Source of the DNA: a virus
Length of the DNA stretch: 21,478 bases
Strand: one strand, 5' to 3'
IMG/VR virus record: IMGVR_UViG_3300044612_001798
Span: 1 to 21,478 of that record
A program made the position numbers and the translations under genes. The notes under the pieces are model-generated. The model saw nothing but the letters and a program-made list of their open reading frames with translations, was not told where the DNA came from and did not search any database. Positions 20,186-21,217 of the stretch are shown here, one piece after another; position 1 is the first letter of the stretch, and every line of letters starts with the position of its first letter.

Positions 20186-21217
20186 TTAGTCCTGGGGGAG
20201 GCAACAGACGCGGAAACCGATGCCGTTGACGCGGAAGTCCGGGTGGAAGTCGTCGCGGCAAGCCGAGCGGCAGACCCCGGGGTGGCCGGCCCACGACCCG
20301 CCGCGCAGCAGGCGGCTGGCATCAGAGGCAACAGACGCGGAAACCGATGGTGATGACGCGGAAGCCTGGGTGGACGTTGCCGCGGTAGGCCGAACGGCAG
20401 CCCCTGGGGCCGTTGAGCCACGACCCGCCTCGCAGCAGGCGGGTGTGGACTCCCCCAGGCTGTGATCCTCCCAGGCGCTGCCATCCGCTGGGGCCCCTTC
20501 ATAGTTGCCATGCCATTGATCTGAACACCACTCCCAGACATTGCCATGCATGTCATGCAGGCCCCAGGCATTGGCCGGAAAGCTGGGCACTCCGGTGGTC
20601 TGCTCGCGGTAGATACCCTTCGAGCCCTGGCCATAGATGTAATTACCGTCGTAATTTGCCAGCTCCGCGCTGATCGTGTCACCAAAATGAAACGGTGTGG
20701 TGGTGCCAGCGCGGCAGGCGTACTCCCACTGGGCTTCGCTGGGGAGGGTGTACTTATATCCGGTGCGTTGGCTGAGGCGATGGCAAAATTCCATCGCATC
20801 CAGCCAGCTCACCTGCTCCACTGGGCGATTATCGCCCTTGAAGTGCGAGGGATCGGAGACAAGGGCGCGTTGGACCCGTGGCCAACTTGCCACCTCCCGC
20901 CATTGGGCCTGGGTGATCGGTGTCTTGGCCATCCAGAAGGCGGCCAGTGTTACCTCATGCTGGGGGCCTTCGGTTTTTGATCGGTCAGGCTCGTGCTCGG
21001 GGGAACCCATTACGAAGCTCCCAGCAGGAATAAACGCCAGCGGGATTAGGTCCGCTGTCGGTTTAGCTGCTGCAGTTGCTGGAGGTTGATAATCGGCGTT
21101 AATCCGGGCCAGTTCGGCTAATGCGACTGTGGCACTAGCGAATAGGGCTCGGTCGTTTTGAGCGCGGATAAACGCCACAGCAAACTCAAAGCCGGCGCGG
21201 CTGGAATCGGTGGTCAT
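20186..21217 (-). CDS. FGE-sulfatase-like (C-type-lectin fold) DGR target protein with displaced C-terminus
   Basis: A 343-residue protein from ATG 21217, with GAGG 7 nt upstream and ATGA overlap with the previous gene. FGE-family marks are [64 protein letters not shown] and [17 protein letters not shown]. The active-site cysteines of true formylglycine-generating enzymes in the C-terminal GG[AS] segment are missing. This fits the non-catalytic ligand-binding members used as DGR targets. The C-terminus (residues 302-343, RLLRGGSW to [10 protein letters not shown]) is a VR. Residues 256-301 are an Ala/Ser/Thr-rich stretch made by reading a first VR copy in the wrong frame. The protein may be intact with an inserted loop, or damaged by a 1-nt change at 20441-20443. 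Confidence 0.85.
20198..20314 (-). repeat. DGR variable region, distal copy (in frame with the gene)
   Basis: A segment of 117 bp coding RLLRGGSW, twelve variable residues, and a constant GFRVCCL end. Variable residues here are A, G, H, G, V, C, D, D, F, D, N and G. It is 97/117 identical to the second copy 127 bp away. It is read in frame by the N-terminal FGE part and followed by PQD and TAA. Confidence 0.82.
20325..20441 (-). repeat. DGR variable region, proximal copy (out of frame)
   Basis: A segment of 117 bp coding [20 protein letters not shown] and ending GFRVCCL with TGA at 20322-20324, when read one frame away from the gene body. Variable residues here are L, N, G, R, G, Y, G, N, V, G, I and T. 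A CCC at 20441-20443 (minus-strand sense) is the point where one missing C takes the gene out of this frame. Confidence 0.82.

Follow-up and report, generated by a model that had tools for sequence, protein, structure and literature searches.

A phage FGE-fold gene with two retroelement-diversified variable regions in different reading frames and a candidate -1 frameshift site between its core and the first of them

Introduction

Why would a gene diversified by a diversity-generating retroelement (DGR) end in two variable regions (VRs) that stand in different reading frames? A DGR target with one VR gives one variant per genome, and when the binding site of a phage is mutated its previous version is lost. 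The question is raised by the virus record IMGVR_UViG_3300044612_001798, the whole stretch of 21,478 bases analysed here (the window), which bears tape-measure and major-head genes. On its minus strand lies a gene of the formylglycine-generating enzyme (FGE)/C-type lectin (CLec) fold (positions 20186–21217), at the end of which an earlier reading made from the sequence alone had noticed a tandem pair of VRs. In this study, we compared the gene with related phage and cyanobacterial sequences. From its sequence features and those of its relatives, we consider it probable that this single phage gene carries two independently diversified VRs and that -1 programmed ribosomal frameshifting selects between them.

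Results

The zero-frame open reading frame (ORF) of the gene encodes 343 amino acids, contains an FGE-sulfatase domain (PF03781, E=8e-52), and ends with the second of two head-to-tail 117-bp copies, VR1 (20325–20441, minus strand) and VR2 (20198–20314, minus strand). The copies differed at 20 of 117 positions (83% identity), and their start-to-start distance was 127 bp. Both spanned RLLRGGSW to GFRVCCL, as the sequence-only reading had described; the pair, its spacing and the intact start and end of each copy were thereby confirmed, and the pair was present in 14 distinct genes, the gene of the window among them, which indicated that it was not a chance product. The same reading had placed both copies at the end of one gene, and this was correct for their position at the 3' end but not for their frames. 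The distance of 127 is 1 mod 3, and VR1 and VR2 therefore stand in different reading frames: the FGE ORF crosses VR1 out of frame and VR2 (39 amino acids) in frame. VR1 is open in the -1 frame for 39 amino acids, where GFRVCCL is followed directly by its own stop codon, TGA (20322–20324, minus strand), which closes a predicted product of 298 amino acids. In the zero frame, VR1 and the spacer (20315–20449, minus strand) are read as a Ser/Thr/Pro/Ala-rich linker that is predicted to be disordered. The position of the VR in the C-terminal part of a CLec/FGE-fold protein was indicated by PF03781, the fold model described below, and a match to the DGR variable protein TvpA.

In the window and its relatives, the variation in VR1 and VR2 sat on NNC-type codons. 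A template repeat (TR) was predicted by writing A at the variable VR sites, and this prediction was then searched for. A contig of a cyanobacterium from the order of Cyanobium (G194:C157) contained an Avd gene, a reverse transcriptase (RT) gene and, immediately after the RT gene, a TR that differed from the phage-derived prediction over 114 bp at one non-A and two A positions. The Avd gene matched the NCBIfam model DivGenRetAVD with E=2.5e-22, slightly below the cut-off of that model, and Pfam bAvd above its cut-off; the RT matched RVT_1 with 57 bits and had the motifs IGNLTSQ and YVDD. This DGR contig was just 3 kb long and may be a mobile element in its own right. Cyanobium sp. Cruz CV13-4-11 had a similar cassette, whose TR was 93% identical to the predicted sequence. 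When the G194 TR was used as the outside reference for adenine-site counts, the VR1 set differed from it at 173 of 325 A sites (53%) versus 93 of 1079 other sites, and the VR2 set at 178 of 300 A sites (59%) versus 84 of 996 other sites. The excess at A sites over the other sites (about 8.5%) had p<1e-61, calculated on rows that are not independent. This concentration at adenine sites of the differences from an independent cyanobacterial TR bore out the earlier claim that both copies are DGR variable regions.

The window and the related phage records searched, which include records of 40–67 kb and may be incomplete, yielded no RT (RVT_1), and the 17 records with the -1 arrangement yielded no TR. 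An exact search for the AAC-pattern TR over all IMG/VR gave a sole match, in a record with free-standing VR cassettes and no RT (L142). In that record (L142:348–887), VR-like cassettes stand without an FGE core, an AAC-rich TR-like copy (393–505) being followed by a VR-like copy (555–671). The sequence-only reading had named the lack of an RT and a TR in genome or host, together with a lack of polymorphism at the variable codons, as grounds against its view; the former lack holds for the phage records examined, but the matching cassette of RT, Avd and TR was found in related cyanobacteria. The RT and TR are probably supplied in trans, either by the host or by a part of the phage not seen in these records, and trans action between DGR loci of one genome has been argued previously (PMC10907252). 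The matching cyanobacterial sequences suggest that the host is a cyanobacterium and that these viruses are probably cyanobacterial. Another cyanobacterial DGR locus (L156, G031:C18) had a truncated RT that was joined to a TR-like sequence at the 3' end of the latter, together with two VR-bearing FGE genes that matched the phage TR at all except one or two non-A sites. When the phage records L002 (10774–11023) and 3300044613_003466 (L132/L130) were compared, VR1 was identical and VR2 different, with flanks that were not near-identical. This comparison suggested that change in one VR copy may go along with renewal or retention of the other.

Before VR1, on the same strand, we identified the heptamer G_GGG_GAG (20450–20456), a near-canonical slippery sequence whose X_XXY_YYZ phase was checked and corresponds to a -1 shift. 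A Shine-Dalgarno (SD)-like element, GGGAGG (20467–20472, minus strand), was located 10 nt before the heptamer, with a calculated anti-SD duplex of -9.8 kcal/mol, and its spacer falls inside the range of 9–14 nt upstream that has been published for SD-like stimulators of -1 shifting (PMC5009743). A candidate stimulatory hairpin, CCCGCC-loop-GGCGGG (20424–20443, minus strand; -13.9 kcal/mol), was found 6 nt 3' of the heptamer. In the relatives, the sequence directly before VR1 consisted of a purine-rich SD-like element (GGAGG or similar) at the same position, about 10 nt of spacer and, where the window has its heptamer, a phased GGGGGAG, GGGAAAG or AAAAAAG. In E. coli, G_GGA_AAG is a highly shift-prone heptamer (PMC5009743).

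All fetched FGE genes with a VR were scanned, and 157 distinct genes were kept. The first VR was in the -1 frame in 15 of the 157 genes, and all 15 had both the phased heptamer (G_GGA_AAG, G_GGG_GAG, or the dnaX heptamer A_AAA_AAG) and the SD-like element; among the 141 genes with the first VR in frame, both were present in only two (p=4.5e-19, rows not independent). The remaining gene, L167, the sole +1 case, was set aside as a TR-like stretch that diverges from the TR toward its 3' end. One of the 15 genes, L193, has A_AAA_AAG with GGAGG exactly 10 nt upstream and was found by a scan that postdated the frameshift hypothesis. The A6G pattern scan also gave L250, which is not an FGE gene, and L252, whose heptamer is out of phase and whose VR is in the zero frame; these two served as negative controls. 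Among the tandem relatives, the VR spacing was 124, 127 or 130, without exception 1 mod 3, the FGE core was always in the frame of VR2 and VR1 always in -1, and a -1 stop occurred no more than two codons from the end of VR1 despite differing tails.

Two natural variants behaved as the frameshift hypothesis predicts. The gene of L018, which falls into one group with the L007 tandem genes, carries GAGAAAG instead of GGGAAAG and a single VR that lies in the zero frame, and the gene of L021 has kept the heptamer and its only VR lies in -1. The codons at the slip site were also constrained: the slip glycine was GGA or GGG in all 14 genes compared, these two codons making up 28% of the glycine codons in the genes, and the Glu, Ser and Leu codons beside it were invariant, the mean same-codon rate being 0.64. 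The composite motif of heptamer and SD-like element had just two further occurrences in 787 kb of strand-bases.

Several other arrangements were noted among the relatives. In L007 (9995–12086), two FGE genes follow one another, and each possesses a slippery heptamer and a VR1/VR2 pair of its own, so that this one phage has four VRs. In L021 (2874–3300), VR1 and VR2 seem to have collapsed into one -1-frame VR, and the zero frame runs via the linker into the next gene. L014 (10400–11400) and L016 (300–1000) are nearly identical phage contigs with three and two VR copies, respectively, a difference due to recombination or an assembly artefact. Permuted FGE genes were present in L025 (9986–10846), L026 (9983–10846), L205 (from 2965), L207 (from 2965) and L241 (from 3245). 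There, one to three VRs precede the FGE core and are mutually in frame, a Met stands a few residues before most of them, and the core ends where its own VR would usually start; this is a second way of holding several VRs, perhaps by means of alternative starts. No tandem pair was found in the cultured Microcystis phages Ma-LMM01 and MaMV-CH01 (L170/L171), whose FGE gene, annotated as 'kinase' in the former and 'hypothetical protein' in the latter, has a single in-frame VR-like end. This end differs strongly between the two phages, which suggests that the gene is a DGR target there as well.

To describe the zero-frame product, we used an AlphaFold2 model from a run with 58 sequences (pLDDT, the predicted local distance difference test score, 85); a run with 18 sequences (pLDDT 47) was discarded. 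In the model, VR2 completes the FGE fold, with a confident FGE core and a pLDDT of about 96–97 in VR2, whereas the linker between them had a pLDDT below 50 at residues 254–285 and 287–293. The closest structures to the model in the PDB include PvdO, FGE and TvpA. Ser, Thr, Pro, Ala and Gly made up 75% of the linker in ten genes, and the variable codons of VR1 read NCN in the zero frame, which can encode only Ser, Pro, Thr or Ala. Because adenine-mutagenised NNC codons are never stops in any frame and are read as NCN in the zero frame, mutation of VR1 leaves the VR2 product unbroken. As such codons give no stops and the DNA is GC-rich, no weight was placed on the zero frame being open across VR1. 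The junction of the predicted 298-residue -1 product (SLGK-VLRGGSW in relatives) is spaced as in single-VR homologues, for example SLRK-LLRGGSW of L018. Both forms should therefore fold, each with a different hypervariable face.

According to the proposed mechanism, a ribosome that keeps its frame would translate VR1 as the disordered Ser/Thr/Pro/Ala-rich linker and finish on VR2, giving the protein of 343 amino acids. A ribosome that shifts by -1 at the heptamer would translate VR1 in its own frame and terminate directly behind it, giving the protein of 298 amino acids. A single gene would thus produce two binding proteins with different hypervariable faces. The slippage, its efficiency, the use of both proteins and their ligand are inferred. 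The protein could serve in receptor binding, as in phage BPP-1 (PMC7517822), or act at the surface or as a sensor during lysogeny. In the window, the FGE gene is on the strand opposite to the structural genes; in L005, it lies near terminase, exonuclease and integrase-like genes. Its neighbours in L004 are replication and methyltransferase genes, and tail-fibre-assembly-like genes are found there at a distance of about 7 kb. Elsewhere in the window, the tape-measure gene has a 156-bp repeat unit in four to five copies (392–1295), with a period of 52 amino acids.

Alternative explanations

The sequence-only reading took one of the two copies for a spare cassette. Applied to VR1, this would mean an untranslated or decayed copy, serving as a recombination donor or left as a by-product of retrohoming, in a gene that makes only the VR2 protein and whose linker was left by duplication. 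The zero-frame ORF is intact without slippage, and the different VR numbers of the near-identical L014 and L016, together with the VR2-type tail of the single VR in L021, suggest VR recombination. However, a spare cassette predicts neither the heptamer with SD-like element in 15 of 15 genes, nor the fixed -1 relation and the -1 stops, nor the broken heptamer with restored frame in L018 and the single -1 VR in L021. The conserved -1 relation, the constant distance between the phased heptamer and the SD-like element, and the position of the -1 stop directly behind VR1 suggest that both VRs are translated as alternative C-termini. They do not support a spare-cassette role for VR1, which we regard as unlikely. 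Phase variation at the DNA level, in which gain or loss of a base in the G5 run would toggle VR1 and VR2 among virions, is less probable still: a one-base indel there would bring VR1 in frame, but none of the contigs found had a different run length, AAAAAAG or GGGAAAG (the latter no homopolymer) takes the place of the G5 heptamer in other lineages, and an SD-like element 10 nt upstream plays no part in DNA slippage.

Slippage of the RNA polymerase rather than of the ribosome would be expected to yield the same two proteins. The bacterial cases have been described on runs of about nine A or T (PMC5009743), whereas those in the present genes are shorter, GGGAAAG being a mixed sequence, and the SD-like element would be left unexplained; we give this explanation very little credence. 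Just as little is due to an assembly or sequencing error as the source of the frame break or of the second copy. Near-identical tandem repeats are error-prone in metagenome contigs, but many metagenomes contributed to the 14 distinct tandem genes that share the -1/0 relation, and the VRs of these genes differ at many sites; an artefact is effectively refuted for the pair. Some observations also weigh against programmed frameshifting. The hairpins 3' of the heptamer are formed largely by constant VR sequence and are not specific evidence, and they were not counted. G_GGG_GAG is less canonical than G_GGA_AAG, and its slippage is undocumented in the review cited above (PMC5009743). The relatives are not independent; on the core tree, which does not include L193, the trait needs four changes, and at least two of these are forced by well-supported branches.

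Discussion

Programmed -1 frameshifting at this gene would make recoding a display switch. It is likely, in our judgement, that frameshifting leads to co-expression, in a set proportion, of two versions of a binding protein that the DGR has diversified independently, and that the AAC-based code keeps the non-chosen VR1 harmless as an NCN linker, and the phages may use the RT and TR of the host. If this is true, one binding site could be kept while the other explores, or the two could be displayed as a mixture. Two further points are suggested by the arrangement: gene-calling programs overlook VRs or join them wrongly, and a phage that has no RT may draw on the DGR of its host.

The closest known systems are TvpA of Treponema denticola (2y3c) and the Cyanobium DGR target in L149, which have the same fold, a C-terminal VR within RGGSW/GFRV and adenine-directed NNC variation as found here, and the matching TR is in cyanobacteria. 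FGE/CLec DGR targets in the genomes compared have one VR in the gene's own frame, whereas the gene of the window has two VRs in different frames behind a slippage cassette, with no RT or TR found on the phage records examined. The frameshift sites of E. coli dnaX, the lambda G/GT genes and insertion sequence (IS) elements share with this gene the X_XXY_YYZ heptamer, an SD-like element about 10 nt upstream, a candidate 3' hairpin and a common N-terminus. Those frameshifts add or remove a domain, whereas the one predicted here would choose between two homologous hypermutated C-terminal domains. Mtd of Bordetella phage BPP-1, a phage also described in PMC7517822, is a DGR-diversified tail-fibre tip protein. 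Like the product of the gene of the window, Mtd is a phage DGR-diversified CLec-fold binding protein. BPP-1 has an RT and a TR of its own and a single VR; the family of the window differs in that no RT or TR was found on the phage and in its two VRs.

More than one VR per target gene, which the sequence-only reading had considered unusual, is already known and is not in itself the novelty. Thirty-one DGRs with several VRs in one ORF have been listed (PMC6642488), and tandem FGE paralogs of Marichromatium (PMC3521204) and a multi-VR case in Thiohalocapsa (PMC10907252) have been reported. In the descriptions of these cases, the VRs overlap one ORF or the CLec domains stand in tandem, and neither alternative frames nor frameshifting is mentioned. 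We found no report in the openly licensed literature that joins DGR hypermutation to programmed frameshifting. Several VRs per ORF and widespread -1 frameshifting are thus each known, and what is new within that literature is the proposed combination of both in one gene.
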